This document shows positions 20,544 through 55,513 of a stretch of DNA of 64,000 nucleotides, piece by piece. Made by a program: the position numbers and the translations under genes. Under the pieces are notes generated by a model. The model ran no database searches. It had not been told where the DNA came from and saw only the letters and a list, made by a program, of their open reading frames with translations. The DNA is taken from assembly GCA_964017185.1 (NCBI GenBank), contig OZ024870.1, positions 65,016,812 through 65,080,811 of the forward strand. The letters run 5' to 3'. Source of the stretch: Rugalucina vietnamica. Lineage: Eukaryota > Mollusca > Bivalvia > Lucinida > Lucinidae. Every line of letters begins with the position of its first letter. Positions within the stretch are counted from its first letter, which is position 1.

Positions 20544-20569
20544 CTGAAATAAATAAATAAATAAAATAA

Positions 20570-32132: not shown

Positions 32133-32230
32133 AACAAGAAAAAGCAGCAAAGCTGCGGGAGTTTAAATACTCTGATTCATCCAGAGTTTAGGCAAAAACC
32201 AACAACGGGTATCAGAAACACCAGTCCTAA

Positions 32231-32706
32231 TGCACCAGTCATTTGTATCCCCGGCTCCCCTAGGGCCGGGGATAGCGGGGCCACAGCGGGGCTAAAGTGC
32301 TGGGTTTTAACCTCTAATGAGTCTCGGCCGTGCCAAGGATAAGCCAGGGTTTTTTAAATTTCCCGCCAATACAGAGTCGTGAACATTAATTCAAATTAGA
32401 TAATACTGTAGTTGTATTTCAACATTTCATTACTTCTATGGTCCTTATTTAATGTAAATTGAATGACCCTGTACATTTACATGCAGAAATTCAAACTCCT
32501 CTCTCATATTCTTTTTCAATAGAACAACTACCAACTGTTGTTCCACATTTTTGGCAGCCTTTGGGGAGCGGGGGCTTTTAGCAGGGATTTTACCACAAAT
32601 CTGACCCCTCAATGCCGGGCTTTAAGCCGGGCTTCAAAAACTGAAAAACTAAATGCCTTGCTATTCCCTGGCCCCAGTGGGGCAGTGGATACAAATGACT
32701 TGTGTA
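32231..32706. mobile_element. MITE-H in arm L
   Basis: 476 bp; TIR TGCACCAGTCATTTGTATCC with inverse GGATACAAATGACTTGTGTA. TAA duplicated at 32228-32230 and 32707-32709. Confidence 0.88.
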
Positions 32707-32877
32707 TAAGAACAATTTCAGTGTTTAAAGCATGAGCAATCAGATTTGGTATGCTCATCACTGATATGAAGGTGTAAGTACACATGGAGTTGGCTATATG
32801 CCGGATTGTCCTCAAGGACGCCCGATCATTGCTATACTTAAAGTTCACCCTGTGAGCCTAACGGCTCAGGTGAGCTA

Positions 32878-33075
32878 TTATGGGTGCAGAAAGTCCTAGT
32901 CAACAATGTTTCAATCATGTCAGGGCGAAGCCCCGTCTCCCTGGATATTTACCAGTACTCTTGGGATTTAATGTGTTGCTCAATGACATAAACATGGCAC
33001 ATCAAGTGTGGATCTAACCTAGGACCTCTTGATTCAGAGCCCGATGCTCTACCACTAGGCCACCATGTTTCCCTT
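32878..33075 (-). repeat. tRNA-related SINE-II in arm L
   Basis: On the minus strand TGGCCTAGTGGTAGAGCATC and GGTCCTAGGTTAGATCC stand at box A and box B positions, followed by TTGAGCAACACATTAAATCC. Counterparts at 46190 (R1) and 53795 (R2). Confidence 0.7.
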
Positions 33076-33363
33076 TTAAAGTGATCTTATTTTTTTATTA
33101 TGTAGACAGAACATAGCTTTTTAGTGTGTTTATTTTATAACCTGATCTTCATGAAAGAAATGTGCTGTCTGTGGGAATGATTGTCAGGCCCATTTCATTA
33201 TGAATCGGACATTATCATCCAAGCTATAGCACCCCCTCAAGATATAAACAGAACAATTATTCTTATTCTTGAAGCCTTTTGTTGGTTTAGTTTTGTATGG
33301 TAGAATATCATTATTTTCTGTCAGGTGGTGTTAGGACCAGCCATTTCTGAGTATATAACAAAT

Positions 33364-33594
33364 GAGCCGCATCGTGAGAAAACCAGATTTTTGCCTATAT
33401 GAAAACAAAGGCGCAGATCAGCTTCACAGTAACTGAGAAGCTGATCAGAGCCTTTGTTTTTGCTACACAGATAGTACAATTTCTCTTCTTCCTAAATCCG
33501 AAATTTCAAGCTTCTAGCCTGCTTCTGTGACTGTACAGGTTTGCGCCATACCTTGTCGGAAACTCCAAAGACTGGTTTTCTCATGCCGCGGCTC
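33364..33594 (+). mobile_element. MITE-A in arm L
   Basis: Complete, with AAAT duplicated at 33360-33363 and 33595-33598. Shared with R2 (53027-53257) and absent from R1. Confidence 0.92.
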
Positions 33595-34949
33595 AAATAT
33601 TTTTAGAGCTCAAGGACACTGCGCTGCAAATGTATGGAACCCAGAACCTCTAGCTCTGGAATTGGCTACTCTACCACCAGGCCATTGCTGTACCGTAAAA
33701 TACCAAATTCCATGCATATCCTTTGTGATTTTTATAAAGCCTATTGGGTGCATCTATTTGATTGTTAACCCCTTTGAAAGAGGTCTGGTGTAAAACATAA
33801 CCATGCACATCAATACTAAATGTGTACATGTAGGGTGTAGCTGTGATGTTTTCACATGAAACAGACAATATTGCACTCTGTTCTTTTATTAATTTCTGTT
33901 TTCACAATCACTGACTGTGTCTAGAGAAGATCTTTGCTTTGTGGTTAACATTATAAAACCATTTTCATTCTTAATTCAACTGAGCATAAAAATATCAGCA
34001 TTAATTTATCAGCAGTACTGTTTATTACATTTATCAGCTAGGACAACTGGCTGGCTTTGGTGATTTACATCCCACAGACTTTGGCTAGTCCAATATTTAT
34101 GAAGCAGAAAAATTTAAACTTGGTTGAGCTGTGCTTGTTATGGTGTCCTTCTTCATTTATACAGTTGATAAATTTTTTCATGATTTATCATCAGAGACCA
34201 ATAATCCGTCTTTAAGCTTTCTGGTTTGTGGAGTGAGTCATGGATGATTACATCCCCTGCCTCTGAGCATGGTTATGCTGAAAGACAATAGAAATCATGC
34301 ATAAGAAAGTGTTTGAGATGAAGGCATATTTTTATATTTATAAATCAATCTTCATCACTTCATGCAGACTACATCAATTTCACAACTTTTTTTTAACATA
34401 ATCTTCATAAGTTGTATTATTTCATATATATGCAGCCTGGTTTAAATTGTTCTTTGTCGCAAACCTCGAAGACAAAGCTCATGTAAGCAGCCACTGTGAT
34501 GATAAAAGTGTGTATTTTGCAGATGCAGAAAACACTGTATCAATACATTTCAACAACACAGTAACTTCATAGAGCTATGATCAGTGGTACATCACATTTC
34601 TACATTTATCAAATTCAAACCCTTGCTACTGAGTTTCAAAGCTTAAAATCATGAAGTTTTGCAGTTTATTCCCAATATAGATAAAAAATGGTACATGTAT
34701 TATAAATACCAAAGAAAGTGTCTGATTTGGAGTGGTTTCTGTCAATGTGCATGTGTGATTCTTGGTTTGGAAAATGTAAGTGTAATGGCTGGTCAACACT
34801 CTAGCAGCCCATCTATTTATCAAATTCTCACAGCCTGAGGGTGACAGTATGTTTTTCAAAGGTGTTATTTTACAAACTTAACAAAATGATTTAAGTTTCT
34901 TTATTAAACTGCATTTAAACGTATACAAAAGTTACATACATGTACATAC

Positions 34950-35061
34950 CTAAAATACTGCTCAATGAATCACAAAACTGATGAGCTAGCTGTCCTGAGT
35001 ACCCCATCAGCTTTGCATCTTTCAACCATCCTTCCCAACCATTGGCCATAATATTAATTTA
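34950..35061 (-). other. Exon-like segment in arm L (MANGWEGWLKDA...)
   Basis: Acceptor gtctttatttcag and donor gtatgt bound 112 nt. The ATG at 35049 opens 33 codons, MANGWEGWLKDA then KLMGYSGQ..., and stays open to the donor. Counterparts: R1 44358 onward (frame ends early, ...SLFVIQ stop) and R2 51531-51642 (ATG changed to ACG). I do not recognise the family. It may be a captured host exon or chance. Confidence 0.35.
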
Positions 35062-36429
35062 CTGAAATAAAGACAGGAAACCTTTTAAATAAGAGCCATA
35101 TCATGAGAAAACATTTTATGCATGCTAAAGTCGAGACTTAGATAAGCTGCAGCAGCAGGATAAACACAGCTACACAATCAATGAAGTCTTGTTTAAACAA
35201 AAAGATAGTACATTTCCACTGCTTACTGTACTCAATCCTATACTTCAGGCATCTACCCAGTGCCTCTGGTTTTGTCTAACCAGGTTTTCTTTGTATGTTA
35301 TAATGTTGCTTAATGTCCCAGTCAACAGCAAAGCTCATGTCAGAATGCATACATGTGACATCTTCCTTAGTATGTGTCTTTTCTATGTATTTGTTCGGCA
35401 TGTGGCAGAAAAAAAAAAACAAAGATACTTCGGAGAGAGAATGGGAAAACAAACTGCTGCCCATACATAATCTTTCAGAAACTGTGTTTTTCAGAATCTC
35501 ACTTTTCTGAAACACCTCAAGAAAAATATCACCATAACATCCTTTTCAATTTGTAACCCAAAAGTCTTGAAAAGAGCCGCAAAAAAAAGGAAAAGAAAAT
35601 CGGTCCACTAATAAAAAAAAAGAAAATCAATGGGTGATTCCTCTGTATGGTAGACACTGAATAGGGTGGAGCCCTGGTATTGCGGTCTAGCAGATGGCGT
35701 ATTTAGAAAAGACATAAAACATAGTTTCTGGAAGATGGTGTATGGACAGTAAAGACACAGGCTGGTTGAGCTGCCTGCAGCAGCTGGTGTATTTAGAAAA
35801 GACACAAAACACTTGAGGATAGTGTATGGACAGTAAAGACAGGGACCCACACCCCGACCCACCAGCCTGTGGTATTTAGAAAAGACACAAAACATAGTTT
35901 CTGGAGAAAGGTGAACTCAGTGATTTTTTTCAGCATTTTGGGAACGGTACCAGTACCGGTTCAATTGGGAAAAACAGCCTAATTTTACCATCAATTAAGA
36001 AAATCTTAAGACCAGTAAAAATATCATGATAAGTGTTACCATGATTTGTTTTCTAAAAGTAAACATCATATGACTATGACACATGAAAATTAGCATTATG
36101 CAATGTCACAAATATCAGATTAATTGTTGCTTATAACAGTACGTTTAATTAAATTATGGTTGCAGTTGTAAGCCTGATTGGGAAACTTTCTCAGATTGGG
36201 AATTTTTAACCATGCATTTGGGAAAAAAGATAATTTTTGCCATTGGGAACGACTCCTAAAACCGGAGTCTGTTTTATAGCGAAAAAAAATCACTGCTGAA
36301 CGGACAGTAAAGCCAATGACCAGCGACTATGGCTGGTCGAGCTGCCTGTGGCTAGTGTAATTAGAAATTTTCAAAAGATACAAAACATATATATATATAT
36401 ATATATAGTTTCTGGAGGATGGTGTTTGG

Positions 36430-36739
36430 CGATGCACGACATTTCGTCGAAAATGTGTTTTGTAGAAAATGTTGTAACTTCAAACATATTCACCACAAAA
36501 TTTTTACATTTATTCCGTAGAAGACCAGCCTATAGGTTCACATTTTGAGCCACCAACCACTAGGGTTAGGCTAAAGATCTGGGCTGATGATGGGGACATT
36601 TTCGACAAATGTAATTTTCGACGAAATGTCGCGGAGGCGTTGTTTGGGAATCCGTGACATTTCGTCGAAAATTACATTTGTCGAAAATGTCCCCATGCCC
36701 AGACAAAACACATTTTCTGAAAGGAAAAGTCGTGCATCG
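36430..36739. mobile_element. MITE-M (9-bp target, Mutator-like) in arm L
   Basis: 310 bp; ends CGATGCACGACATTTC with a large internal palindrome (36591-36635 / 36651-36695). GGTGTTTGG duplicated at 36421-36429 and 36740-36748. Confidence 0.85.
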
Positions 36740-36829
36740 GGTGTTTGGGCAGTAAAGACACCAAGAGCTGCCTGCTTGATAAAACTTGTGATTCACTGAC
36801 TGGTGTATTTAGAAGAGCTGGTTTATTTA

Positions 36830-37026
36830 CATGCGCGGATCCAGAAATTTTCATGAGAGGGGGTCCAATGAAAATGGTATTTTTTGGTCACAGACGAGGG
36901 GGGTCCAACCCCCCCCCCAACCCCCCCCCCCCCCCCAAATCCGGAAATTACCTTTTTTAGGTAAAATTTTCAAATTCAAGGGGGGGGGGTCCGGACCCCC
37001 GGTCCCCCCCTCTGGATCCGCGCATG
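36830..37026. mobile_element. MITE-C copy 2, private to arm L
   Basis: 197 bp; ends CATGCGCGGATCC. ATTTA duplicated at 36825-36829 and 37027-37031. The matching R2 site (about 49765) is empty (TCTAAATAAACC). Confidence 0.92.
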
Positions 37027-37659
37027 ATTTAGAAGAGACACAAAACATGGTTTTTGGAGGATGGTGTATGAACAATCAAGACACCAACCAGCCTGTGGCT
37101 GGTGGAGCTGCCTGCGGCAGCTAGTGTTTAAAAAGTTTAGAAATTTTCAAAAGACACAAAACATAGTTTTTGGAGGATGGTGTATGGACAGTATTTAAGA
37201 CACAGACCAGCCACAGGCTGGAGCTGCTGGCTGGTCGAGCTGCCTGCTTGATAAAACGAGAGTCTTTTGGGTTGTGTATTGTCTAGTCTGTTAAGCATTT
37301 TACTTTGGTTTGAGCCTCTGCAGAATTATTCATTGACATTTCTACTTTCACTTTCCGAATATCTTTCATTGGTATTTCTGTCAGGCTAAGTCACTATTTC
37401 TGTCAGGCTAAGTCACTTCCTGTTTGACTAATATCCGGACTTCAATGCATAAATTAAAAGGTTCGGAACTTCAATTTTATAGCTGCTCAATACAGAAAGC
37501 TTTGCAAAAAGCTTTATATATATGGATTTGTGGGTTTGTGCTGCCGCATGTCAGGCTTCTTTAGAATTTTAAGAATTTTGTTGTCGCTAAAGAGACCCGG
37601 AAGCGCTCTGGTACTCAGTTTTTGAGAATCGATAAACTGGTTAAAACGAAACAGAACTG

Positions 37660-38995
37660 ACTTCTGGCAGTTAACACACTTTGATAGACATTGAGGCCAT
37701 CAGTCTCAGCAACCGAAAGACACTTTGACAGACAGTGAGGACATCCATCTCAGGAACTGAAAACTGTCTTCCAGTTAGCCATGAGTCTCATGAACCCAAA
37801 ACTGCCTACCGGTAGTAAATACACTATGAAAGACAGTGAGGCCATTCCTCTTGGGAACAGAAAACTGATAAGACTGACGCCAACCGTCTCAGAGGCGGTG
37901 AGGCCATCTGTCTCAGAAACCGAAAACTGCCTATAGGCAGTTAAGAAACTTTGATCTGAATTTGAACGGATCTGACTTTGAAACTTAGAACGGAAAATTG
38001 CCTACCGGCAGTTTTAAAAGAAACTTTGATAGACATTGATGCCAACCGTCTCAGCAACCGAAAACTGCCTTACGGCAGTTAAAACACTTTGATAGACAGT
38101 GAGGCCAACCATCTCAGAAACCGAAAACTGCCTATGGCAGTTAAGACACTTTGATAGACAGTGACGCCAACTGTCTCTGCGAAGCCACCCATCTAAGTAA
38201 CCGAAAACTGCCTACGGCAGTTAAAACACTTTGATAGGCAGTGATGCCATCCATCTCAGAAACCGAAAACTGCCTACGGCAGTTAAGACACTTTGATAGG
38301 CAGTGACGCCAACTGTCTCAGTGAAGCCACCCATCTCGGGAACAGAAAACTGCGGAACACTTCCAGAATAGCGGTCCCCAGAAAACACATAATACATGGT
38401 CAGTAGGTGTTTATCGAGTTGCTATGCTGGTAGATGTGCTATCTGTATGTGCAACACGTATATCGAAGTTCCAAATGGGGGCTACCGCCCCCACACCCCC
38501 GAAAATTCAGAATTTGAAAAAGATTAAAAATGTCAGTCATTCTGGGGACCGCTAAACTGGAATCTACCCAAAACTGCCTACGGCAGTTAAGACACTTTGA
38601 TAGACAGTAATGCAATCCATCTCAGAAACCGAAAACTGCCTACGGCAGTTAAGACACTTTGATAGACAGTGATGCCAACTGTCTCAGAAACCGAAAACTG
38701 CCTATGGCAGTTAAGACACTTTGATAGACAGTGACGCCAACTGTCTCATTGAAGCCACCCATCTCAGGAACCGAAAACTGCCTACGGCAGTTTCCGGTTT
38801 CTGAGATGGATGGCATCACTGCCTATCAAAGTGTCTTATTGAAGACACCCATCGCAGGAACCGAAAACTGCCTACGGCAGTTAAGACACTTTGATAGGCA
38901 GTGATATGCCATCCATCTCAGAAACCGAAAACTGCCTACGGCAGTTAAGACACTTTGATAGACAGTGACGCCAACCAAAATAGGAACACAAAACT
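37660..38995. repeat. 62-bp minisatellite in arm L
   Basis: The unit contains the small palindrome AACTGCCTACGGCAGTT followed by AAGACACTTTGATAGACAGT and a variable linker. Related 100-bp segments (GACCCGGAAGCGCT..., GAATCGATAAACTGG) flank the array at 37585 and 39325. Confidence 0.93.
38354..38569. mobile_element. 216-bp hAT-like insertion in arm L minisatellite
   Basis: Inverted ends TTCCAGAATAGCGGTCCCCA / TGGGGACCGCTAAACTGGAA near each edge. AAAACTGC on both sides (38346-38353, 38570-38577). R2 lacks it. Since AAAACTGC occurs in every minisatellite unit, the 8-bp TSD is supportive but not proof. Confidence 0.7.
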
Positions 38996-39671
38996 TTGGT
39001 CGTGCTGGCTGTGGCAGCTAGTGAATGTAGAAAATGTGTTAAATGAAGAGTAAAACTTGTTTGTGTTAAACTTACACCTGTACTTTCACTTTCGAATGAC
39101 GACCCTCCTCCTGAATTTGTTTCACGTTAAAAGTTAAATTCCTGATTTTACAACTTGTTTCTACGTCAGTTATCTCTTTAAAGTCTCCGGCATCTGTAAT
39201 TACAAATGTCCAACAGCGAGCGACTCCAAATAGGTCTTGAAATCGCGAGAAACGTTCATCATTTGCTGCATTGCGTTACATTTTCAATAATTTTAGAACC
39301 TTGCCGTTGCTACGGAGACCCGGAAACGCTATGGTACCCGCGTTTCGCATAACGTGAGATTCGATAAGCTGGTGAAAAAAAAATATGATGGATCCATTCC
39401 AAAACAATATGGCCACCCAGTTCGGTCGATTCCGTATTTTATTTAGAAAATCATTTATTGAAAATGTATATATAAATATTTTGAAAAACAAATTTTTCTG
39501 CAAGTCATTTTATTTGATCATTTTTTTAAAACACCTTCGGTGTTTTTTTACGAACGCCTACGGCGTTCGTATTTGTTCGGCATGTGGCGGAAACAGCCGA
39601 AGACACTTCGGAAGGACAATGTGTTTACATACTAAAGACACCTCGAAGCCTTCGGCAGCTGGTGTCTTTAG

Positions 39672-39834
39672 AAAAAAGCGAAGTCACGCGTAGTTTTAGC
39701 AAATAAACACTTATGGGATCATTTCGAGAGAAAGGCAACGGAACAATACGACGTCAGTTACGTCATACACCGGGACCGTTACCTGATTTCAGAATGTAAC
39801 CAAATCTCTACGATCATTGTACAGTACTCTTTTT
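39672..39834. other. Spacer between arms L and R1
   Basis: 163 bp without inverse counterpart. It contains TACGACGTCAGTTACGTCAT. The inner arm ends meet it symmetrically (...GTCTTTAG / CTAAAGAC...). Confidence 0.9.
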
Positions 39835-40599
39835 CTAAAGACACCAGCTGCCGAAGGCAGCTTCGACCGGCCAGCCGTAGGCTGGCCGGTCGAGGTGTCT
39901 TTAGTATGTAAACGCATTGTCCTTCCGAAGTGTCTTCGGCTGTTTCCGCCACATGCCGAACAAATACGAACGCCGTAGGCGTTCGTGAAAAAACACCGAA
40001 GGTGTTTTAAAAAAATGATCAAATAAAATGAATTGCAGAAAAATATGTTTTTCAAAATAATTATGTATACATTTTCAATAAATGATTTTCTAAATAAAAT
40101 ACGGAATCGACCGAACTGGGTGGCCATATTGTTTTAGAATGGATCCATCATATTTTTTTTTCACCAGCTTATCGAATCTCACAGTGCGCGAAACGCGGGT
40201 ACCACAGCGTTTCCGGGTCTCCGTAGCAACGACAAGGTTCTAAAATTATTCATTGTCTAACGCACTGCAGCATTGAACGTTTCTCGCGATTTCAAGAGCT
40301 ATTTCGAGTCGCTAGCTGTTATGGACAGTCGTAATTACAGATGCCTGAGTTTTTAAAGTGAGAACTGACGTAGAAACAAGTTGTTAAATCAGGAATTTAC
40401 CTTCTAACGTGGAATAAATTCAGGAGGAAGTCGTTCTTCGAAAGTGAAAGTAGACAGGTGTAAGTGTTTAACACAATTTATTTAACATATTTTGTACATA
40501 TTCAGCTGCCACAGGCAGCTCGACCAGACGCAGGCAGTTTTCGGTTAACAGCCGTTAAGTAGTTTTCGGTTCCTGAGTGAGGTGGATGGCCTCACTCGG

Positions 40600-41965
40600 T
40601 AAAGGTGTCTATGTTTTGTGATTCCATTCTAAAATTATTGAATCAGTGTCTATCAAAGTTCTTAACTGCCTTACAGTTTGTGTCACTGTCCATCAAAGAC
40701 AAAGTGTCTTAATTGCCCTAAAGCAGTTTTCAGTTGCTGAGACGGTTGGTGTCACTGTCTTTCAAAGTGTCTTAACTGCCGTAAGGCAGTTTTGGGTTTC
40801 TAAGATGGTTGGCCTCACTGTCTATCAAAGCGTCTTAACTGCCGGTGGGCAGTTTTTGGTTCTGAGACGGTTGGCGTCACTGCCTATCAAAGTGTCTTAA
40901 CTGCCGTAGGCAGTTTTCCGTTCCTGAGATGATTGGCCTCACTGTCTATCAAAGTGTCTTAACTGCCGGTAGGCAGTTTTTGGTTCTGAGTCGGTTGGCG
41001 TCACTGCCTATCAAAGTGTCTTAACTGCCGTAGGCAGTTTTGGGTTCCTAAGATGGTTGGCGTCACTGTCTATCAAAGTGTCTTAACTGCCGGTAGGCAG
41101 TTTTTGGTTCTGAGACGGTTGGCATCACTGCCTATCAAAGTGTCTTAATGTCTTTACTGCCGTAGGCAGTTTTCGGTTCCTGAGATGGTTGGCTTCACTG
41201 TTTCAAAGTGTCTTAACCGCCGGTAGGCAGTTTTTGGTTCCTGAGCCCGTTGGCGTCACTGTCTGTCAAAGTGTCTTAACTGCCGGTAGGCAGTTTTTGG
41301 TTCCTGAGACGGTTGGCGTCACTGTCTATCAAAGTGTCTTACTGCCGTAGGCAGTTTTTGGTTCCTGAGATGGTTGGCCTCACTGTCATCAAAGTTTCTT
41401 AACTGCCTGTAGTGTAGGCATTTTCTGGTTTCTGATGGCCTCACTGTCTATCAAAGTAGTGTCTTAACTGCCGTAAGGCAGTTTTCGGTTGCTGAGACAG
41501 ATGGCTTCACTGTCTATCAAAGTAGTGTCTTAACTGTCTTAACTGCCGTAAGGCAATTTTCGGTTGCTGAGACAGATGGCTTCACTGTCTATCAAAGCAG
41601 TGTCTTAACTGCCGTAAGGCAGTTTTCGGTTGCTGAGACAGATAGCCTGACTGTCTATCAAAGTGTCTTAACTGCCGGTAGGTACTTTTCAGTCTATCCA
41701 AGTTTCTTAACTGCCACTTAAATACTGGCAGTTTTCCGTTCCCGAGATGGATGGCCTCACTGTCTGTCAAAGTGTCTTAACTGCTGGAAGGCAGTTTTCG
41801 GTTCCTTTAGATGCATGGCTTAAAGTGTCTTAAACTGCAGGAAGGCAGTTTTCAGTTCCTCAGACGGATGTCCTCACTGTCTATCAAAGTGTCTTTCAGT
41901 TGCTGAGACTGATGGCCTGACACTGTCTATGGAAGTGTGTTAACTGCCAGAAGTCAGTTGTTGTT
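40600..41965. repeat. 62-bp minisatellite in arm R1
   Basis: About 22 units of CTATCAAAGTGTCTTAACTG + CCGGTAGGCAGTTTTTGG..., more heterogeneous than in L or R2. Confidence 0.93.
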
Positions 41966-42329
41966 TCTTTCGCCAGTTAATCGATTCTCAAGATTTGCGA
42001 AAACTTAGTACCGGAGCGTTTCCGGGTCTCCTAATAGCAACGACAAAGTTCTAAAATTACAAGCCTGACATGCGGCAGCAGGAACCCACAAATCAAGAAT
42101 CTTTTTGCAAAGCTTTCTGTATAGAGCAGCTATAAAATCGAAGTTTGGAAGCTTTTATTTTGATAGTTGTCCGAGGAAATGCATTGAAGTCTGGATTTTA
42201 GTCAAACAGAAAGTGACTTAGCCTGACAGAAATATCAATGAAAGATATTGGGAAAGTGAATAATTGTGCAGAAGCTCAAAAGAAAGTAAATGCACAAACA
42301 ATAAGACTGAAGTCAGTGAATCACAAGTT

Positions 42330-43260
42330 TTATCAAGCAGGGCAGCTCGACCAGCCGGCAGCAGCAGCCTGTGGGTGGTCTGTGTTTTTACTGTCCATAC
42401 ACCATCTTCCAGAAATTATGTTTTGTGTCTTATGAAAATTTCTGAACTTTTTAAACACTAGCTGCCGCAGGCAGCTCGACCAGCCACAGGCTGGTTGGTG
42501 TCTTTACTGTCCACACACCATCCTTCAGAAACTATGTTTTGTGTCTCTTCTAATTACACCAGCTCTTCTAAATACACCAGTAAGTGAATCACAAGTTTTA
42601 TCATGCAAGCAGCTCGACCAGCCACAGGCTGGTCGGTCTCTTTACTGCCCAAACACCATCCTCCAGAAACTAATTTTTGTGTCTTTTGAAAATTTCTAAA
42701 AACACTAGCTGCAGCATACATTTTGACCAACCACAGGCTGGTCAGTGGTGAACAGTGTACATACACCTTACTCCAGAAACTATGTTTTGTTTCTTTTTCT
42801 TTTGAAAATTTCTAAATACATTAGCTGCCGCATACATTTTGAGCAGCCACAGGCTGGTCCGTCGTTTCACTGTCCAAACGCCGTTCTCCAGAACTAATAA
42901 TGTTTTGTGTTTTTTTCTAAATACACCAGCTGCCGTAGGGTGGCTGGTCGGTCGGAGTCTTCACTGTCCATACACCATCCTCCAGAAATTATATTTTGTG
43001 TTTTTTTATAAATACACTAGCTGCTGCAGGCAGCTCAATCAGCCACAGGCTGGATGGTGTCTTTACTGTCCATACACCATCTTCCAGAAACTATGTTTTG
43101 TGTCTTTTCTAAATACACCATCTGCTAGTCCGGGATACCTGAGGGCTCTGCTGTATTCAATGTCTATCATACAGAGGAATCACCCATCAGTTTTCTTGCA
43201 AGACTAGCCACAGGCTGGATGGTGTCTTTATGGTCCATACACCATCCTCCAGAAACTATG
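42330..43260. repeat. About 100-bp minisatellite in arm R1
   Basis: Units of CACCATCCTCCAGAAACTAT + GTTTTGTGTCTTTTCTAAATAC + CAGCTGCCGCAGGCAGCTCG + ACCAGCCACAGGCTGGT. Confidence 0.9.
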
Positions 43261-44340: not shown

Positions 44341-44357
44341 TTCTGTCTTTATTTCAG

Positions 44358-44463
44358 TATAATGGCCAATGGTTGGGAAGGTTGGTTGAAAGATGCAGAG
44401 GGGCAGAACCTGGCTGATGCTGTACTCAAAACAGCTAGCTCATCACTTTTTGTGATTCAGTGA
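44358..44463 (+). pseudogene. Exon-like segment in arm R1, frame diverged
   Basis: ATG at 44362 opens MANGWEGWLKDAEGQNLADA, then the frame diverges from L/R2 by an indel and stops at 44461-44463. The acceptor ttatttcag is kept. Confidence 0.3.
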
Positions 44464-45109
44464 GCAGTATTTTAGGTATGTGTGTAACGTTTGTATACTT
44501 CTTATTCTAAATACTTTAATATATTAAAGATACTGCAAAAATACATAAAAGCTGTGAAACTCAGTGGCAAGGGTTTGATGACTAGAAATGTCATGTACTA
44601 GTAGTCTACTGATCATAGCTCTTGATACAGGTTTTCTAATCTGCATCTGCAAAATACATAATTTTATCATGACAGTGGCTGCTTACACATTGGCTTTGTC
44701 TTCGAGGTTTGTGACAAGGAACAATATAAGCCAGGCTGCATATCCCATGAAATGTTAAAACTATGAAAGATCATGCTGTGAAATAGCCGCCACTTTGTGA
44801 AATTATTTGTGAAATAGATCAGACTGAGGCTGTAGTATGTTTCTGCATGAATGAGTAAAAATAGCTTATGATGTAGTCTACATGAACAGATGAAAATTGT
44901 GTTTGAAGATTGATTTATATATAAAAAAAAATGCTATGCCTTCATCTCAAACACTTTCTTATGTATGATTTCTATTATCTTTCAGCATGATCATGTTCAG
45001 AGGCAGGGGATGTAATCATCCATGACTCACTCCACAAACCAGAAAAGTTTAAAGATGGATTATTGGGTTCTGCTGATAAAGTGTTAAAAACTTTATCAAC
45101 TGTATAAAT

Positions 45110-45343
45110 GAGCCGCCTCGTGGGAAAACCAACAATGTGGTTTCAGACCCGGTCCGACACAAACCAGCCTGTACAAGCACAGAAAAGAGCTAGAAGCTTG
45201 AAATTTCTGATTTAAGTAGAAGAGGAATTGTACTATCCGAGTAGCGAAAACAAAGACGCTGATCAGCTTTGCGGTTACCGCGAAGCCGATCTGTGTGTTT
45301 GTTTTCGCCTATGCAGATTGTTGGTTTTCCCATGAGGTGGCTC
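45110..45343 (+). mobile_element. MITE-A private to arm R1
   Basis: Complete; AAAT at 45106-45109 and 45344-45347. R2 has the empty site ACTGCTTAAATGAAGAAGGA near 52441. Confidence 0.95.
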
Positions 45344-45830
45344 AAATGAAGGACACCATAACAAGCACAGCTCTGACAGCCAAGTTTTCTTCTTCATTAA
45401 ATATTGGACTAGCCAAAGTCTGTGGGACTTTCAGTTTCAGATCTATATCACCAAAGCCAGCCAGTTGTCCTAACTGATAAATGTAATAAACAGTACTGCT
45501 AATAAGTTAATGCTGTCCTGAATTTTTTATGCTCAGTTGATTTGAGAATGAAAATGGTTTTATAAATACTGTTAACCCGAAAGCAAAGATCTTCTCATGA
45601 CACAGTCCAAAAATGGGAAACAAAGAAAACAGAAATAAATAAAGGAATAGAAAGCAATATTGTCTGTTTCATGTCAAAACATCACTGCTACACCCTACAT
45701 GTACACATTTAGTTATGGTTTACACCAAACCTCTTTCAAAGGGGCTTACAACCAGGTTAGATGCACACAACAGGCTTTATAAAAATCACAAAAGATACGC
45801 ATGAGATTTGGCATTTTATGCAACAGCGAT

Positions 45831-45912
45831 GGCCTGGTGGTAGAGTAGCAAATTCCTAAGCTAGAGGTCCTGGGTTCCATACATTTGCAGTGTAGTGTCC
45901 TTGAGCTCTAAT
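45831..45912 (+). repeat. tRNA-like head (SINE-III) in arm R1
   Basis: TGGCCTGGTGGTAGAGTAGC and GGTCCTGGGTTCCATAC occupy box A and B positions. Counterparts at 52937 (R2) and 33602 (L, inverse). No acceptor stem can be formed, so it is not a working tRNA. Confidence 0.55.
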
Positions 45913-46189
45913 AATATTGGTTATATACTCAGAAATGGCTGGTCCACAGAATATGACAAAATGATATTCTTCCATAACCAAACTAAACCAACAAAAGGAT
46001 TTAAGAATAAGAATAATTGTTCTGTATAGATCTTGGGGGGTTGGACGATAGTGTCCAATTCATAATGAAATGGGCCTGACAGGCATTCCCACTTATAACA
46101 CATTTCTTTCATGAAGATCAGGTTATAAAGCAAACAAACTAAAAAGTTATGTTCTGTCTACATACTAAGAAATAAGTTCACTTAAGGGA

Positions 46190-46382
46190 AGCATGGTGAC
46201 CTAGTGGTAGAGCATCGGACTCACAATCAAGAGGTCCTAGGTTCAATCAACACTTGAGGTGCTATGTTTTGTCATTGAGCAACACACTTTAACTACCCAA
46301 AGTACTGATAAATACCCAGGGAGTGGGGGCTCTGCCCTGACACGACTGCAACATTGTTGACTAGGACTTTCTGCACCCACTT
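46190..46382 (+). repeat. tRNA-related SINE-II in arm R1
   Basis: GTGACCTAGTGGTAGAGCAT ... GGTCCTAGGTTCAATC, then the TTGAGCAACACACTTTAACT body. Confidence 0.7.
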
Positions 46383-47150
46383 TAGCTCACCTGAGCCGTA
46401 ATGCTGACAAGGTGAGCTTTAAGTATAGCCATGATTGGGCGTTCGTCTGTCGCATAGATCTTCTCTGAAACCGCTTGGCTGATCAAGTTGAAAGTTTATG
46501 TGGAGCCTCCATGGGTAGGGGAAAGAAAGTTTGTTCATGGGATTCTTGACCTTGACCCAAGGTCATTTAATTCTTGACCTTGACCCAAGGTCATTTAAAT
46601 TAATATTATGTTTTTTGTCAGAAATCACGTGGCCGATCAAGTTGATATTTTATGTGGAGCCTTCTTGGGTAGTGGCATTAATATTTTGTTCACGATAGCT
46701 TGGTCACATGACCAGCCTTCTTGGGTAGTGGCATTAATATTTTGTTCACGATATCTTGGTCACATGACCAAGATGGCCGCCACACCCATATATGTCAAAA
46801 CTTCTTCAAAAATCTTCTTCTCCAGAACCAATTGGCGGATTTACTCGAAATTTGGTATGTACCATTTGGGACTCCAGCCAATCATAGTTTGTTCAAATGA
46901 TGAACCTGGGATTACATGTTTTATGGCAAGTTCAATTTTGGAAACAAAGGCTTTTACATGGGAAAAGGCGAAAACAATGGATATTTTGGAAACTGGTTTA
47001 GCCTGAGACGAAAAAAGAACAGAAAAGTTAAATTCTGCAAAATAACCCACATGCTTTCGAGAAAGGCTGGAAATCAGCTGTCATTAAATATTGCCTAACG
47101 TATTACACCAAGAGCTCACCTGAGCCTGCTGGCTCACAAAGTGAGCATAC
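46383..47150 (-). mobile_element. Helitron-like fragment in arm R1
   Basis: Inverse of the 12759/17701 family: terminal hairpin TTAGCTCACCTGAGCC and the CATGACCAAGATGGCCGCCA block. L and R2 keep only about 40 bp of it (32838-32878, 53985-54000). Confidence 0.65.
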
Positions 47151-48099
47151 AGTTTACCTATGCTCTCGCACCCCAGATCTCTGCAACCTTGAGGACAGTC
47201 CAGCATATAGCCAACTCCATGTGTACTTCTTACACCATCATATCAGTGATTCGCATACCAAATCTTATTGCTCATGCTTTAAACAGTAACTGAAATTGTT
47301 CTTAGGACTGGTGTGTTGGTTTTTGCCTAAACTCTGGATGAAACAGAGTATTTAAACTCCCGCAGCTTTGCTGCTTTTTCTTGTTCTAAAGACACCAGCT
47401 GCCGAAGGCAGCTTCGACCGGCCAGCCGTAGGCTGGCCGGTCGAGGTGTCTTTAGTATGTAAACACATTGTCCTTCCGAAGTGTCTTCGGCTGTTTCCGC
47501 CACATGCCGAACAAATACGAACGCCGTAGGCGTTCGTAAAAAAACACCGAAGGTGTTTTAAAAAAATGATCAAATAAAATGAATTGCATAAAAATATGTT
47601 TTTCAAAATATTTATGTATACATTTTCAATAAATGATTTTCTAAATAAAATACGGAATAGACCGAACTGGGTGGCCATATTGTTTTGGAATGGATCCATC
47701 ATATTTTTTTTCACCAGCTTATCGAATCTCACGTTATGCGAAACGCGGGTACCATAGCGTTTCCGGGTCTCCGTAGCAACGGCAAGGTTCTAAAATTATT
47801 GAAAATCTAACGCAATGCAGCAAATGCCGAACGTTTCTCGCGATTTCAAGACCTATTTGGAGTCGCTCGCTGTTGGACAGTTGTAATTACAGATTCCGGA
47901 GACTTTAAAGTGATAACTGACGTAGAAACAAGTTGTAAAATCAGGAATTTAACTTTTAACGTGAAACAAATTCAGGAGGAAGTCGTCATTCGAAAGTGAA
48001 AGTACAGGTGTAAGTTTAACACAAACAAGTTTTACTCTTCATTTAACACATTTTCTACATTCACTAGCTGCCACAGCCAGCACGACCAAAGTTTTGTGT

Positions 48100-49195
48100 T
48101 CCTATTTTGGTTGGCGTCACTGTCTATCAAAGTGTCTTAACTGCCGTAGGCAGTTTTCGGTTTCTGAGATGGATGTCATCACTGCCTATCAAAGTGTCTT
48201 AACCGCCGTAGGCAGTTTTCGGTTCCTGAGATGGATTGCTTCACTGAGACAGTTGGCGTCACTGTCTATCAAAGTGTCTTAACTGCCATAGTCAGTTTTC
48301 GGTTTCTGAGATGGATGGCATCACTCTCTATCAAAGTGTCTTAACTGCCGTAGGCAGTTTTCGGTTCCTGAGATGGGTGGCTTCACTGAGACAGTTGGCG
48401 TCAATGTCTATCAAAGTGTCTTAACTGCCGTAGGCAGTTTTCGGTTTCTGAGATGGATGGCATCACTCTCTATCAAAGTGTCTTAACTGCCTAGCAGTTT
48501 TCTGTTCCTGAGATGGGTGGCTTCACCGAGACAGTTGGCGGCACTGCCTATCAAAGTGTCTTAACTGCCGTAGGCAGTTTTCGGTTCCTGAGATGGATGG
48601 CATCACTGCCTATCAAAGTGTCTTAACTGCCGTAGGCAGTTTTTGGTTCCTTAGATGGGTGGCTTCACTGAGACAGTTGGCGTCACTGTCTATCAAAGTG
48701 TCTTAACTGCCATAGGCAGTTTTCGGTTTCTGAGATGGTTGGCCTCACTGTCTATCAAAGTGTTTTAACTGCCGTAAGGCAGTTTTCGGTTGCTGAGACG
48801 GTTGGCATCAATGTCTATCAAAGTTTCTTTTAAAACTGCCGGTAGGCAGTTTTCCGTTCTAAGTTTCAAAGTCAGATCCGTTCAAATTCAGATCAAAGTT
48901 TCTTAACTGCCTGTAGGCAGTTTTCGGTTTCTGAGACAGATGGCCTCACTGCCTCTGAGACGGTTGGCGTCAGTCTTACCAGTTTTCTGTTCCCAAGAGG
49001 AATGGCCTCACTGTCTTTCATAGTGTCTTTACTACCGGTAGGCAGTTTTGGGTTCATGAGACTCATGGCTAACTAGAAGGCAGTTTTCAGTTCCTGAGAT
49101 GGATGTCCTCACTGTCTGTCAAAGTGTCTTTCGGTTGCTGAGACTGATGGCCTCACTGCCTATCAAAGTGTGTTAACTGCCAGAAGTCAGTTCTG
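48100..49195. repeat. 62-bp minisatellite in arm R2
   Basis: About 17-18 units. Higher-order variants (GGTGGCTTCACTGAGACAGTTGG) match L, not R1. Confidence 0.93.
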
Positions 49196-49509
49196 TTTTG
49201 TTTTAACCAGTTTATCGATTCTCAAAAACTGAGTACCAGAGCGCTTCCAGGTCTCTTTAGCGACAACAAAGTTCTTAAATTCTAAAGAAGCCTGACATGC
49301 GGCAGCACAAATGCAAAGCTTTCTGTATTGAGCAGCTCGGAACCTTTTAATTTATGCATTAAAGTCCGGATATTAGTCAAACAGGAAGTGACTTAGCCTG
49401 ACAGAAATACCAATGAAAGATATTCGGAAAGTGAAAGTAGAAATGTCAATGAATAATTGTGAAAGTAAAATGCTTAACAGACTAGACAATACACAACCCA
49501 AAAGACTGT

Positions 49510-50900
49510 AAGTCAGTGAATCTCAAGTTTAAACTTTTATCAAGCAGGCAGCTCGACCAGCCAGCAGCTCCAGCCTGTGGCTGGTCTGTGTCTTAAATAC
49601 TGTCCATACACCATCCTCCAAAAACTATGTTTTGTGTCTTTTGAAAATTTCTAAACTTTTTAAACACTAGCTGCCGCAGGCAGCTCCACCAGCCACAGGC
49701 TGGTTGGTGTCTTGATTGTTCATACACCATCCTCCAAAAACTATGTTTTGTGTCTCTTCTAAATAAACCAGCTCTTCTAAATACACCAGTCAGTGAATCA
49801 CAAGTTTTATCAAGCAGGCAGCTCTTGGTGTCTTTACTGCCCAAACACCTGATGCACGACATTTCCTTTCAGAAAATGTGTTTTGTCTGGGCATGGGGAC
49901 ATTTTCGACAAATGTAATTTCCGACGAAATGTCGCGGATTCCCAAACAACGCCTCCGCGACATTTCGTCGAAAATTACATTTGTCGAAAATGTCCCCATC
50001 ATCAGCCCAGACCTTTAGCCTAACCCTAGTGGTTGGTGGCTCAAAATGTGAACCTTTATTATAGGCTAGTCTTCTACGGAATAAATGTAAAAATTTTATG
50101 GTGAATATTTTTGAAGTTACAACATTTTCTACAAAACACATTTTCGACGAAATGTCGTGCATCGCCAAACACCATCCTCCAGAAACTATATATATATATG
50201 TTTTGTATCTTTTGAAAATTTCTAATTACACTAGCCGCAGGCAGCTCGACCAGCCATGGTCGCTGGTCATTGGCTTTACTGTCCGTTCACAGTGATTTTT
50301 TTTTCGCTATAAAACAGACTCCGGTTTTAGGAGTCGTTCCCAATGGCAAAAATTATCTTTTTTTCCCAAATGCATGGTTAAAAATTCCCAATCTGAGAAA
50401 GTTTCCCAATCAGGCTTACAACTGCAACCATAATTTAATTAAACATACTATTATAAGCACCAATTAATCTGATATTTGTGACATGGAATAATGCTAATTT
50501 TCATGTGTCATAGTCATATGATGTTTACTTTTAGAAAACAAATCATGGTAACACTTATCATGATATTTTTACTGGTCTTAAGATTTTCTTAATTCATGGT
50601 AAAATTAGGCTGTTTTTCGCAATTGAACCGGTACTGGTACCGTTCCCAAAATGCTGAAAAAAAATCACTGGTTCACCTTTCTCCAGAAACTATGTTTTGT
50701 GTCTTTTCTAAATACCACAGGCTGGTGGGTCCCCAGGGGTGGGTCCCCGTCTTTACTGTCCATACACCATCCTCCAGTGTTTTGTGTCTTTTCTAAATAC
50801 ACCAGCTGCTGCAGGCAGCTCAACCAGCCTGTGTCTTTACTGTCCATACACCATCTTCCAGAAACTATGTTTTATGTCTTTTCTAAATACGCCATCTGCT
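49510..50900. repeat. About 100-bp minisatellite in arm R2
   Basis: Counterpart of the L array, split by MITE-M and by 50290-50690 unique sequence. Confidence 0.88.
49850..50164. mobile_element. MITE-M in arm R2
   Basis: Inverse of 36430-36739. CCAAACACC duplicated at 49841-49849 and 50165-50173. R1 has the empty site ...TGCCCAAACACCATCCTCC near 42645. Confidence 0.88.
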
Positions 50901-51530
50901 AGACCGCAATACCAGGGCTCCACCCTATTCAATGTCTACCATACAGAGGAATCACCCATTGATTTTCTTTCTTTTTTTTATTAGTGGACCGATTTTCTTT
51001 TCCTTTTTTTTGCGGCTCTTTTCAACACTTTTGGGTTACAAATTGAAAAGGATGTTATAGTGATATTTTTCTTGAGGTGTTTCAGAAAAGTCAGATTCTG
51101 AAAAACACAGTTTCTGAAAGATTGTGTATGGGCAGCAGTTTGTTTTCCCATTCTCTCTCCGAAGTATCTTTGTTGTTTTTTTTCTGCCACATGCCGAACA
51201 AATACATAGAAAAGACACATACTAAGGAAGATGTCACATGTATGCATTCTGACATGAGCTTTGCTGTTGACTTGGACATTAAGCAACATTATAACATACA
51301 AAGAAAACCTGGTTAGACAAAACCACAGGCACTGGGTAGATGCCTGAAGTATAGGATTGAGTACAGTAAGCAGTGGAAATGTACTATCTTTTTGTTTAAA
51401 CAAGACTTCATTGATTGTGTAGCTGTGTTTATCCTGCTGCTGCAGCTTATCTAAGTCTCGACTTTAGCATGCATAAAATGTTTTCTCATGATATGGCTCT
51501 TATTAAAAAGGTTTCCTGTCTTTATTTCAG

Positions 51531-51642
51531 TAAATTAATATTACGGCCAATGGTTGGGAAGGATGGTTGAAAGATGCAAAGCTGATGGGGTACTCAGGAC
51601 AGCTAGCTCATCAGTTTTGTGATTCATTGAGCAGTATTTTAG
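51531..51642 (+). pseudogene. Exon-like segment in arm R2, start codon lost
   Basis: Same 112-nt segment as 34950-35061 with splice-like ends. The initiator position reads ACG, but the downstream frame is preserved. Confidence 0.3.
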
Positions 51643-53026
51643 GTATGTATGTAACTTTTGTATACTTCTAAATATTTTTATAGCAGTTTAATATGGAAAC
51701 TTAAATCATTGTTTAAGTTTGTAAAATAACACCTTTGAAAAACATACTGTCCCCCTCAGGCTGTGAGAATTTGATAAATAGATGGGCTGCTAGATTGTTG
51801 ACCAGCCATTACACTTACATTTTCCAAACCAAGAACCACACATTCACATTGACAGAAACCACTCCAAATCAGACACTTTCTTTGGTATTTATAATACATG
51901 TACCATTTTTTATCTACATTGGGAATAAACTGCAAAACTTCATGATTTTAAGCTTTGAAACTCAGTAGCAAGGGTTTGATTTTGATAAATGTAGAAATGT
52001 GATGTACCACTGATCATAGCTCTATGAAGTTACTGTGTTGTTGAAATGTATTGATACAGTGTTTTCTGCATCTGCAAAATACACACTTTGATCATCACAG
52101 TGGCTGCTTACACTAGCTTTGTCTTCGAGGTTTGCGACAAAGAACAATTTAAACCAGGCTGCATATATATGAAATAATACAACTTATGAAGATTATGTTA
52201 AAAAAAGTTGTGAAATTGATGTAGTCTGCATGAAGTGATGAAGATTGTGTTTGAAAATTGATTTATACATATAAAAATGTGCCTTCATCTCAAACACTTT
52301 CTTAGGCATGATTTCTATTGTCTTTCAGCATAACCATGCTCAGAGGCAGGGGATGTAATCATCCATGACTCACTCCACAAACCAGAAAGCTTAAAGACGG
52401 ATTATTGGTCTCTGATGATAAATCATGAAAAACTTTATCAACTGCTTAAATGAAGAAGGACACCATAACAAGCACAGCTCAACCAAGTTTAAATTTTTCT
52501 GCTTCATAAATATTGGACTAGCCAAAGTCTGTGGGACTTTCAGTTTCAGATGTAAATCACCAAAGCCAGCCAGTTGTCCTAGCTGATAAATGTAATAAAC
52601 AGTACTGCTCAGATAAATTAATGCTGATATTTTTATGCTCAGTTGAATTAAGAATGAAAATGGTTTTATAATGTAACCACAAAGCAAAGATCTTCTCTAG
52701 ACACAGTCAGTGATTGTGAAAACAGAAATTAATAAAAGAACAGAGTGCAATATTGTCTGTTTCATGTGAAAACATCACAGCTACACCCTACATGTACACA
52801 TTTAGTATTGATGTGCATGGTTATGTTTTACACCAGACCTCTTTCAAAGGTGCTTACAACCAAATAGATGCACACAACAGGCTTTATAAAAATCACAAAG
52901 GATATGCATGGAATTTGGTATTTTACGGTACAGCAATGACCTGGTGGTACAGTAGCCAATTCCAGAGCTAGAGGTTCTGGGTTCCATACATTTGCAGCGC
53001 AGTGTCCTTGAGCTCTAAAAATATTT

Positions 53027-53257
53027 TAGCCCCGGCATGAGAAAACCGGTCTTTGGAGTTTCCGACAAGGTATGGCACAAACCTGTACTGTCACAGAAGC
53101 AGGCTAGAAGCTTGAAACTTCGGATTTAGGAAGAAGAGAGATTGTACTATCTGTGTAGCAAAAACAAAGGCTCTGATCAGCTTCTCAGTTACTGTGAAGC
53201 TGATCTGCGCCTTTGTTTTCATATAGGCAAAAATCTGGTTTTCTCACGATGCGGCTC
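53027..53257 (-). mobile_element. MITE-A in arm R2
   Basis: Inverse counterpart of 33364-33594. One end has mutated (TAGCCCCGG). Confidence 0.9.
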
Positions 53258-53278
53258 ATTTGTTATATACTCAGAAAT

Positions 53279-53515
53279 CTGAATCTGCCAAGTACTCCAA
53301 ACACCTCATAAACAGAGTATTACATGGAGCTCCCACTATTGAAGTTATCTTTTTGAGAGAAGAGAAGCCAGTGCTTGCCTTATTAATGCTGAGCGCCAAG
53401 CAAGGTAGCCACTGGTACCATTTTTAACGTCTTTGGTATGACGCGGCCCGGATTTGAACCCGCGCCTCCCGCTTCCGAAGCGAACGCTCTAACCATTACG
53501 CTATCGGGACCGGTC
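53279..53515 (-). repeat. tRNA-derived SINE-IV private to arm R2
   Basis: On the minus strand it starts GGTCCCGATAGCGTAATGG, has an anticodon-loop TTCGGAA (CGG, Pro-like) and box B GGGTTCAAATCC. A body follows (GGTACCAGTGGCTACCTTGC). AAAT at 53275-53278 and 53516-53519. L and R1 read AGAAATGGCTGG uninterrupted. Confidence 0.88.
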
Positions 53516-53794
53516 AAATGGCTGGTCCTAACACCACATGACAGAAAATAATGATATTCTGCCATACAAAACTAAACCAACAAAATGTTTTAAGAATAAG
53601 AATAATTGTTCTGTTTATATCTTGAGGGGGTGCTATAGCATGGGTGATAGTGTCCGATTCATAATGAAATGGGCCTGACAATCATTCCCACAGACAGCAC
53701 ATTTCTTTCATGAAGATCAGGTTATAAAATAAACAAACTAAAAAGCTATGTTCTGTCTACATAATAAAAAAATTAGATCACTTTAAAAGGGAAA

Positions 53795-53988
53795 CATGGT
53801 GGCCTAGTGGTAGAGCATCGGGCTCTGAATCAAGAGGTCCTAGGTTAGATCCACACTTGATGTGCCATGTTTATGTCATTGAGCAACACATTAAATCCCA
53901 AGAGTACTGGTAAATATCCAGGGAGACGGGGCTTCGCCCTGACATGATTGAAACATTGTTGACTAGGACTTTCTGCACCCATAATAGC
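53795..53988 (+). repeat. tRNA-related SINE-II in arm R2
   Basis: Inverse counterpart of 32878-33075. Confidence 0.7.
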
Positions 53989-54140
53989 TCACCTGAGCTT
54001 TAAGTATAGCAATGATCGGGCGTCCTTGAGGACAATCCGGCATATAGCCAACTCCATGTGTACTTACACCTTCATATCAGTGATGAGCATACATGTACCA
54101 AATCTGATTGCTCATGCTTTAAACACTGAAATTGTTCTTA

Positions 54141-54610
54141 TACACAAGTCATTTGTATCCACTGCCCCTCTGGGGCCAGGGAATAGCAAGGCATTTAATT
54201 TTTCAGTTTTTGAAGCCCAGCTAAAAGCCCGGCATTGAGGGGTCAGACTTGTGGTAAAATCCCTGCTAAAAATCCCCGCTCCCCAAAGGCTGCCAAAAAT
54301 GTGGAACAACAGCTGGTAGTTGTTCTATTGAAAAAGAATATGAGAGGGGAGTTTGAATTTCTGCATGTAAATGTACAGGGTCATTCACTTTACATTAAAT
54401 AAGGACCATAGAAGTAATAAAATGTTGAAATACAACTATTATCTAATTTGAATTAAAGTTCACGACTCTGTATTGGCGGGAAATTTTAAAACCCTGGCTT
54501 ATCCTTGGCACGGCCGGGACTCATTAGAGGTTAAAACCCAGCACTTTAGCCCCGCTGTGGCCCCGCTATCCCCGGCCCTAGGGGAGCCGGGGATACAAAT
54601 GACTGGTGCA
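54141..54610. mobile_element. MITE-H in arm R2
   Basis: Inverse counterpart of 32231-32706. TTA at 54138-54140 and 54611-54613. Arm R1 has the empty site (GTTCTTAGGACTGG near 47302). Confidence 0.9.
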
Positions 54611-54708
54611 TTAGGACTGGTGTTTCTGATACCCGTTGTTGGTTTTTGCCTAAACTCTGGAAGAAACAGAGTATTTAAACTCCCGCAGCTTTGCTGCTTT
54701 TTCTTGTT

Positions 54709-55513
54709 TGAGCACAATAATGTGTTAAATGACTATTTTGGGAATAAACCTTTAACTTTTCAGATGCCGAGAAACAATGTGAATTTTGAGATGACATCCC
54801 TGTAAACTTTGACGCAACGTAATTGCATCAAGAAAAGATTGCTTTCCGGCTAAAAGTGTACATTGTGGTTCTTGTAGGTTTAAATATTGATGGGTTAAAG
54901 AGTTTCTTTCAGTTCGTCTTCATATCAATTTACAATTTGGAAATTAATTGAAAATTGCTAAACTTAAGTCTCATAGTATATATCAGCTACATGTAGGCCA
55001 ACCAGCGCTGTGTGGCCCATGTGGTAAACCATCATAGACAATTTTACATGCCATTTTTTATATTAGCCCGTATTTTTTTTCTAAGTATGCCTAAATGGTC
55101 ATCTGGTTCGGGCGATATACGAGTATTTTTTCTGCGTATTTACTGCAATAAATAACCAAAATAGGAACATATATGTATGTGTTTTCATCTTATTGTTATT
55201 CTTCTCGCAAAGAAACATGTCTCTACATCTTATAACATAGAAAGATTTTTAAAAGTATAAGCATGGCCAAGATAGTGCAATCCATTTGACATCGGGATAA
55301 AGGTTGAAGATAAATAAGAAAACATCTTACATAATCATATAATGTTATTAGCAAACCTGTACATCATTTTTCCCAAATAAAAATATTAATTTATTTACAC
55401 TCTACAACTGCTGATTCTATTAAATAACAAATATTGAGGTTCGGTCCATGGAAAGTAAATCTACCTGCACCGGAATGTCAAGAACCCTAGCATATAATCG
55501 TTATCATGTATTT
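54709..55513. other. No gene; unique flank of R2
   Basis: AT-rich. It is not related to the L flank (31389-32132), and no duplication shared by the two outer flanks is visible. Confidence 0.5.

Follow-up and report, generated by a model that had tools for sequence, protein, structure and literature searches.

Helitron2 elements, as described by Bao and Jurka (2013, PMC3627910), carry a 5' hairpin 0-2 bp from the end and a 3' hairpin, insert between TTTT and T or C, and cause no target duplication. The HINE elements described from oysters have internal tandem repeats and T-rich insertion sites (PMC4067079, PMC7492417). Helitrons in tandem have been described from plants and bats (PMC5876387), and an adjacent insertion 2 bp apart has been reported for FoHeli4, a relative of the Fusarium elements FoHeli1 and FoHeli2 (PMC5148889). 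Here we describe a cluster of three long repeat units in a 64,000-bp stretch of contig OZ024870.1 (positions 65,016,812 to 65,080,811, forward strand; assembly GCA_964017185.1) of the bivalve Rugalucina vietnamica, referred to below as the window. An initial annotation had proposed that the cluster might represent one giant foldback element. Judged from the sequences compared here, the units of 7.3-7.5 kb are each complete and belong to a family of dispersed mobile elements, probably of the Helitron2/HINE kind.

Three complete copies of one element

The cluster is composed of unit L (32133-39671, minus strand, 7,539 bp), unit R1 (39835-47385, plus strand, 7,551 bp) and unit R2 (47386-54708, plus strand, 7,323 bp). 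The 5' ends of L and R1 face each other across a spacer of 163 bp (39672-39834) that lies outside the element, and R1 and R2 are joined head to tail with 0 bases between them. Self-comparison of the window bore out these coordinates and orientations, the exact R1/R2 junction and the spacer, all given in the initial annotation, together with its observations that the units share both ends, that the spacer is unique and that no outer target duplication is visible. Both ends were exactly common to L, R1 and R2, each unit terminating at one and the same base on either side, and the homology was full-length apart from insertions and deletions (indels). The sole match of the spacer within the window was the spacer itself, and no mutual homology was detected among the spacer and the 300-bp outer flanks of L and R2. 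The designation of the units as "arms" did not hold, as each has two different, defined ends (5' CTAAAGAC... and 3' ...TTCTTGTT) and no terminal inverted repeats (TIRs) were found on the unit.

The closest pair is L and R2, not the facing pair L and R1. L and R2 align over nearly their whole length with 146 mismatches in 6,911 aligned bases (2.1% substitutions) plus indels, and their blocks are 89-97% identical, with the minimum in the minisatellites. R1 represents a diverged lineage with nested insertions of its own; it is about 73-93% identical to the other units per block and has unmatched stretches and private indels, while its final 72 bp are near-identical to theirs (98.6% to R2). L and R2 also hold a copy of a 240-bp dispersed repeat at the same place (33356-33603 in L, 53019-53266 in R2), which indicates that both derive from one source element already carrying this repeat. 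On this evidence the source element would have moved whole, nested repeat included.

Dispersed copies with different flanks

The search for other copies used as its protein query the reading frame that runs out of the R1 5' end into the spacer. This 5'-end open reading frame had 39 relatives (protein clusters), all from ENA, on contigs of 38 different sizes (0.4-21 Mb). In 38 of the 39 the peptide common to the relatives ended exactly at the element border and was followed by a tail (28 in one frame, 10 in another); P0032 was the only relative without a readable junction. When the tails were compared position by position, none of the 703 pairs reached 40% identity over the first 20 residues. 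A gapped local comparison found 7 of the 38 tails to be alike, mostly at shifted positions, in three groups (P0001 and P0008; P0013, P0015 and P0038; P0025 and P0027), as would be expected if some copies had landed in the same host repeats. The 38 readable junctions therefore include at least 34 unrelated 5' flanks, and the spacer matched none of the 38.

Reading frames spanning the 3' end yielded another three junctions (P0040, P0041 and P0042), with different flanks that diverge at the same point. The changeover thus falls at a constant point in 38 of 39 other 5' ends and in 3 of 3 other 3' ends. The contigs of P0040 and P0023 are equal in size, so P0040 may be the other end of the P0023 copy. 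The tail of P0020 includes a peptide from a repeat that is also present in the window, suggesting that the other copies probably come from this species or a near one. One 5'-junction cluster, P0004, consists of 12 member sequences on a single contig, perhaps a local amplification of the insertion together with its flank.

Further copies with different flanks, which the initial annotation had proposed to look for, were thus found, at 38 readable 5' junctions and three 3' junctions. Constant ends combined with different flanks elsewhere argue that the units are complete mobile elements, each with two unlike ends, and that the spacer, by the same comparison, is host DNA. The proposal of a giant foldback family was accordingly right as to a large, non-coding, dispersed and mobile family and wrong as to its foldback nature.

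Element ends and target site

The 5' end of all three copies begins with an 11-bp perfect outer stem from base 1 (CTAAAGACACC/GGTGTCTTTAG). In R2 (47386-47455, plus strand) this stem closes a T-shaped hairpin of 70 nt, whose arms have GAA and GTA loops, and the R1 hairpin (39835-39904, plus strand) has the same build. The hairpin of L (39632-39671, minus strand) has lost its second arm (30 bp absent compared to R2). At the 3' end of R2 (54685-54708, plus strand), the hairpin GCAGC-TTT-GCTGC (54685-54697) is followed by an 11-nt tail, TTTTTCTTGTT. The same hairpin and tail are present in R1 (47362-47385, plus strand), where they adjoin R2, and in L (32133-32156, minus strand), so that in each of the three copies 11 nt separate the hairpin, with its short stem of 5 bp, from the end.

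The 5' side was T-rich at all 38 readable junctions and at the copies in the window, where the flanks are TTTTTT (L), TTTTT (R1) and TTGTT (R2). Base -2 read T in 28 of 28 junctions of the one frame (a probability of about 3e-15 at the base content of the window), and the other junctions (10/10) read Glu-Lys, which places T at -1, -3 and -4. The base following the 3' end is G in L, C in R1 and T in R2, i.e. T or C in two of the three. No target duplication was visible beside any of the three window copies or beside the whole cluster. The ends differ from the canonical Helitron1 signature (5' TC...3' CTRR, between A and T), since the 3' end is TTGTT and the target is T-rich.

Minisatellites and strand-biased hairpins

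Minisatellites with palindromic cores, as initially annotated, were confirmed in all three units. A perfect hairpin with a GNA or GNNA loop was counted by us in 10 of 20 monomers of the 62/63-bp minisatellite of R1 (40700-41689, plus strand), and the same hairpin core in 7 of 13 monomers of the 62/142-bp array of R2 (48108-48810, plus strand) and in 7 of 11 monomers of the L arrays (37989-38968, minus strand). Such mini-hairpins thus occur in about half of the minisatellite monomers; they are also found outside the minisatellites. GNA and GNNA loops are described as forming exceptionally stable, nuclease-resistant DNA hairpins (PMC4686876).

Perfect hairpins (stem of at least 6, loop of 3-4) were then counted in element orientation, giving 31 in L, 28 in R1 and 21 in R2 (80 in total). 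GNA/GNNA loops on the element strand accounted for 13/31, 15/28 and 13/21, respectively (41/80), and the reverse-complement loop type for 1, 0 and 0. The rest of the window held 3 GN(N)A loops and 4 of the reverse type among 62 hairpins, and shuffled controls gave means of 0.3-0.6 (30 shuffles each). With a C-G closing pair and a stem of at least 5, GN(N)A loops were seen on the element strand in 13/23 (L), 15/30 (R1) and 12/23 (R2) hairpins and on the opposite strand in 0/2, 0/6 and 0/3; the values outside the cluster were 0/18 and 2/38. When hairpins were collapsed by their inner five stem bases, GN(N)A loops remained on 5/14, 4/12 and 5/9 stems (L, R1, R2). Several loops read ATA or ACA and are possibly decayed versions.

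The arrays folded better on the element strand than on the opposite strand by 7 to 10 kcal/mol (R2 -106.6/-99.3, R1 -144.8/-135.3, L -118.2/-110.0 kcal/mol). In duplex DNA, such a bias toward one strand would be without obvious meaning; it thus points to a single-stranded stage and suggests that one of the strands is selected, or else produced, in single-stranded form. An RNA role, or a small number of independent origins, is a possible alternative explanation of the bias.

Coding content

The cluster contains 39 stop-free fragments of at least 80 aa, 20 of which (83-160 aa) were scanned against Pfam. None of these 20 matched a family above the curated cut-off, in agreement with the earlier description of the units as non-coding, and no transposase was found among them; two had one common sub-threshold match of 15 residues. 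Rfam gave 0 matches at gathering scores for the whole window, and exact scans of IMG/VR for the 3' end and for the minisatellite core gave 0 matches each. A parvovirus-like origin, suggested by the T-shaped 5' end, was set aside in view of the dissimilar 3' end and the failure to detect coding sequence, although no dedicated search was made.

Nested insertions and neighbouring features

L has received a later insertion at 36830-37031, a short inverted-repeat element with the ends CATGCGCGGATCCAG.../...CTGGATCCGCGCATG and TAAAT on both sides; a relative lies at 14061-14247. An insertion of 241 bp in R2 (53275-53515) is absent from L. R1 carries its own copy of the 240-bp dispersed repeat at 45108-45347, at a different place in the unit from the copy common to L and R2. 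Copies of this repeat outside the cluster are located at 945-1184, 1693-1941, 4024-4258, 12293-12533, 24189-24431, 25050-25290, 26111-26335 and 55510-55751, and six of the copies outside the cluster contain a palindrome with a 14-bp stem (GATCAGCT...AGCTGATC).

A MAFFT alignment had raised the idea that the last 900 bp of R1 are a captured foreign 3' end. This was dropped, as BLAST shows homologous sequence with indels, namely a deletion and an insertion of roughly 745 bp that is in part similar to a repeat at 12.8-19.7 kb. At 17794-19581 lies a tandem repeat of 457 bp (3.9 copies), with a related stretch at 12774-14060 and similar pieces in the private insertion of R1 (46.4-47.2 kb).

The element cluster is situated between two tandem glutamine synthetase genes on the minus strand, with exons at 61247-61621, 55840-56187, 22629-22796 and 20258-20557. 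They were recognized by Pfam Gln-synt_N and by glutamine synthetases in PDB, the second copy being found by tblastn. Elsewhere in the window, a 486-bp direct repeat (271-756 and 3193-3678, 99.6% identity) encloses about 2.4 kb, possibly as the long terminal repeats flanking a small retroelement. A 227-bp unit is present in three copies at 30072-30755 (98% identity), an array that was probably formed recently. Two long palindromes (28576-28602 and 31232-31264) have the common core TAGAACCGCCTC-GCC-GAGGCGGTTCTA.

Comparison with known systems

The units resemble Helitron2 as described in PMC3627910 in having a 5' hairpin that starts at the end and a 3' subterminal hairpin, in their position after a T-run without visible duplication, and in insertion before T or C in two of the three window copies. 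They differ from that description in the two-armed (T-shaped) 5' hairpin of R1 and R2, in the G flanking the 3' end of L, in having no convincing asymmetric terminal inverted repeat (ATIR), and in the absence of detected coding capacity together with a length that is very great for a non-autonomous member. With the HINE/DINE-1-like Helentrons, including Cg_HINE and Pearl of bivalves (PMC4067079, PMC7492417), they share non-coding sequence, a T-rich target, no visible target duplication, an 11-bp 5' repeat paired with a nearby complement, a 3' palindrome and internal tandem repeats. In contrast to the elements described there, they have no clear 3' subterminal inverted repeat (subTIR), they are 7.3-7.5 kb long, and their monomers measure 62 bp vs about 138-168 bp in the oyster HINE-type elements. 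FoHeli1 and FoHeli2 of Fusarium oxysporum, with a comparable size of 5-6 kb, have GAA loops closed by C-G in their 5' hairpins, a loop type also present among the hairpins of the units, but are described as encoding Rep/helicase and having a 12-bp ATIR, the ends TCAG...ATTTT and the target TNAT|A (PMC5148889). Galileo and Foldback of Drosophila are similar in their internal tandem repeats and in the inverted long repeats seen at this one locus; as described, they are TIR transposons with 7-bp duplications (PMC3573991), whereas the units here show neither TIRs nor a visible duplication, and the spacer does not move.

A proposed rolling-circle-like route

We consider it likely that the units are complete, long (7.3-7.5 kb), non-autonomous elements moving by a rolling-circle-like route through single-stranded DNA, with a Rep/helicase of the Helitron2/Helentron type most probably acting in trans. 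As neither an ATIR nor a subTIR was convincingly found and no partner enzyme was seen in the window fragments scanned, their membership in Helitron2/HINE is regarded as probable, not proven. In the proposed mechanism, a partner enzyme would cut one strand beside the T-run at the 5' hairpin, and the cut strand would be peeled off toward the 3' hairpin, which would act as a stop signal. The peeled strand would then be joined into a new T-rich site without duplicating the target. The asymmetric ends, the dispersal among different flanks, the T-rich 5' target side, the terminal hairpins and the strand-biased stable hairpins are observed; the enzyme, the single-stranded intermediate, the role of each hairpin and the order of the R2 and R1 insertions are inferred.

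L, R1 and R2 would be separate insertions, L in one orientation and R1 and R2 in the other, and the head-to-tail arrangement would have arisen when one element took the border of the other as its target, the T-run next to the 5' C of the element being itself a TTTT^C target. In the simplest history, R2 would have inserted first, at TTTTT|T, and R1 later, at the T-run/C border of the R2 5' end. Insertion of R1 at the left border of R2, between TTTTT and the C of R2, would yield a junction without extra bases. The reverse order would require the less T-rich TTGTT as a target, and 2 of the 28 junctions read a G at that position. The divergence between R1 and R2 is too great for a single, freshly formed concatemer.

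Several observations weigh against this interpretation. None of the 38 other 5' ends adjoins the 3' end of another copy, so tandem arrangements are rare. No Rep/helicase was found among the 20 scanned fragments. No empty site came to light. Inverted matches of one end with the other, as expected for an ATIR or subTIR at the 3' end, did not exceed shuffled controls, their scores being reached by 96, 65 and 123 of 200 shuffles (L, R1, R2; for direct matches, 26, 10 and 32 of 200), and inspection by eye revealed only a weak match (about 7/11) where an ATIR is expected, about 20-60 bp from the 3' end. The hairpin bias also calls for caution: many GN(N)A hairpins are copies of one minisatellite core, the three units are related, and one or two hairpins per unit with TGT loops point the opposite way. 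In the first 200 nt, folding slightly favours the opposite strand, by about 2 kcal/mol (R2 -62.3/-64.7, R1 -60.5/-62.6), and six single GNA triloop hairpins have equal energy on both strands under standard DNA parameters; one GNNA hairpin slightly favours the unit strand (-6.8 vs -6.4). As far as we know, these parameters include no bonus for GNA loops, and the folding therefore neither proves nor refutes the loop argument.

Alternative explanations

A foldback element moves as a whole, inverted arms together with the middle. Under that explanation, L and R1, with R2 as an extra arm, would be the long inverted repeats of one giant transposon with a middle of 163 bp, and the inverted units do face each other across a short spacer, with internal tandem repeats that resemble Galileo/FB arms. 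However, the best match of L by far is R2 (2.1% substitutions), not R1, and the spacer, unique in the window and matching none of the 38 other 5' flanks, does not travel with the units. Moreover, the unit has two different ends, stands alone and lacks a visible flanking duplication, while most Galileo copies are described with 7-bp duplications and arms of about 0.3-1.2 kb (PMC3573991). The L/R2 similarity, the non-mobile spacer and the independent flanks led us to reject the foldback transposon, which we regard as extremely improbable. The same three observations speak against the alternative raised in the initial annotation, a segmental palindrome made by replication or repair. Three long copies within 22.6 kb and the nested insertion common to L and R2 would suit an inverted and direct duplication without mobility. 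Nevertheless, the limits of homology coincide to the base at either end of L, R1 and R2, the outer flanks are unrelated, and the same ends recur elsewhere, in 38 cases for the 5' end (with at least 34 unrelated flanks) and in three for the 3' end, so that we give this explanation hardly any credence.

Long similar repeats are hard to assemble, and collapsed or misjoined repeats could in principle have made the head-to-head and head-to-tail layout. Yet R1 is set apart from the other two units by roughly 7-27% per block, and L from R2 by 2.1% plus several private insertions. This divergence marks L, R1 and R2 as three distinguishable sequences, and the dispersed copies with different flanks would be left unexplained; an assembly artefact is thus very unlikely. 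A less distant competitor, in our view still improbable, is a single-strand transposon of another kind: not a relative of the Rep/helicase Helitrons but an IS200/IS605-like element or a eukaryotic single-tyrosine HUH element such as a Replitron. The subterminal hairpins, the absence of TIRs and of a visible duplication, and the strand-biased hairpins would all fit, and the missing ATIR leaves room for it. The T-run target, the 5' hairpin and the 3' hairpin near the end, the internal minisatellites and the bivalve precedents are nonetheless in line with HINE/Helitron2 as described (PMC3627910, PMC4067079, PMC7492417), and a partner enzyme of neither the HUH nor the Rep/helicase kind was seen.

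Implications

We tentatively suggest, as an idea that we hold to be less likely than not, that the transferred strand of some eukaryotic rolling-circle transposons may be shaped as a single-stranded structure, in which a T-shaped end and a ladder of GNA/GNNA mini-hairpins would protect or package the intermediate or mark its polarity. We know of no earlier report of GNA loops in Helentrons; in a narrow literature search, the "Helentron" papers among the matches listed did not contain "GNA". The GAA loops in the 5' hairpins of FoHeli1 and FoHeli2, as printed, provide an independent hint (PMC5148889).

The proposed giant foldback becomes a testable rolling-circle family, and the cluster shows how head-to-head and head-to-tail arrangements can arise when the border of an element is itself a good target. 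Strand-specific hairpins of the GNA type offer a simple sequence test, applicable to any genome, for a single-stranded stage and for the strand concerned, and they bear on the question of why non-autonomous Helentrons carry minisatellites. If the suggested role is correct, the minisatellites of such elements would be functional hairpin arrays, and loop polarity alone would tell which strand is moved.

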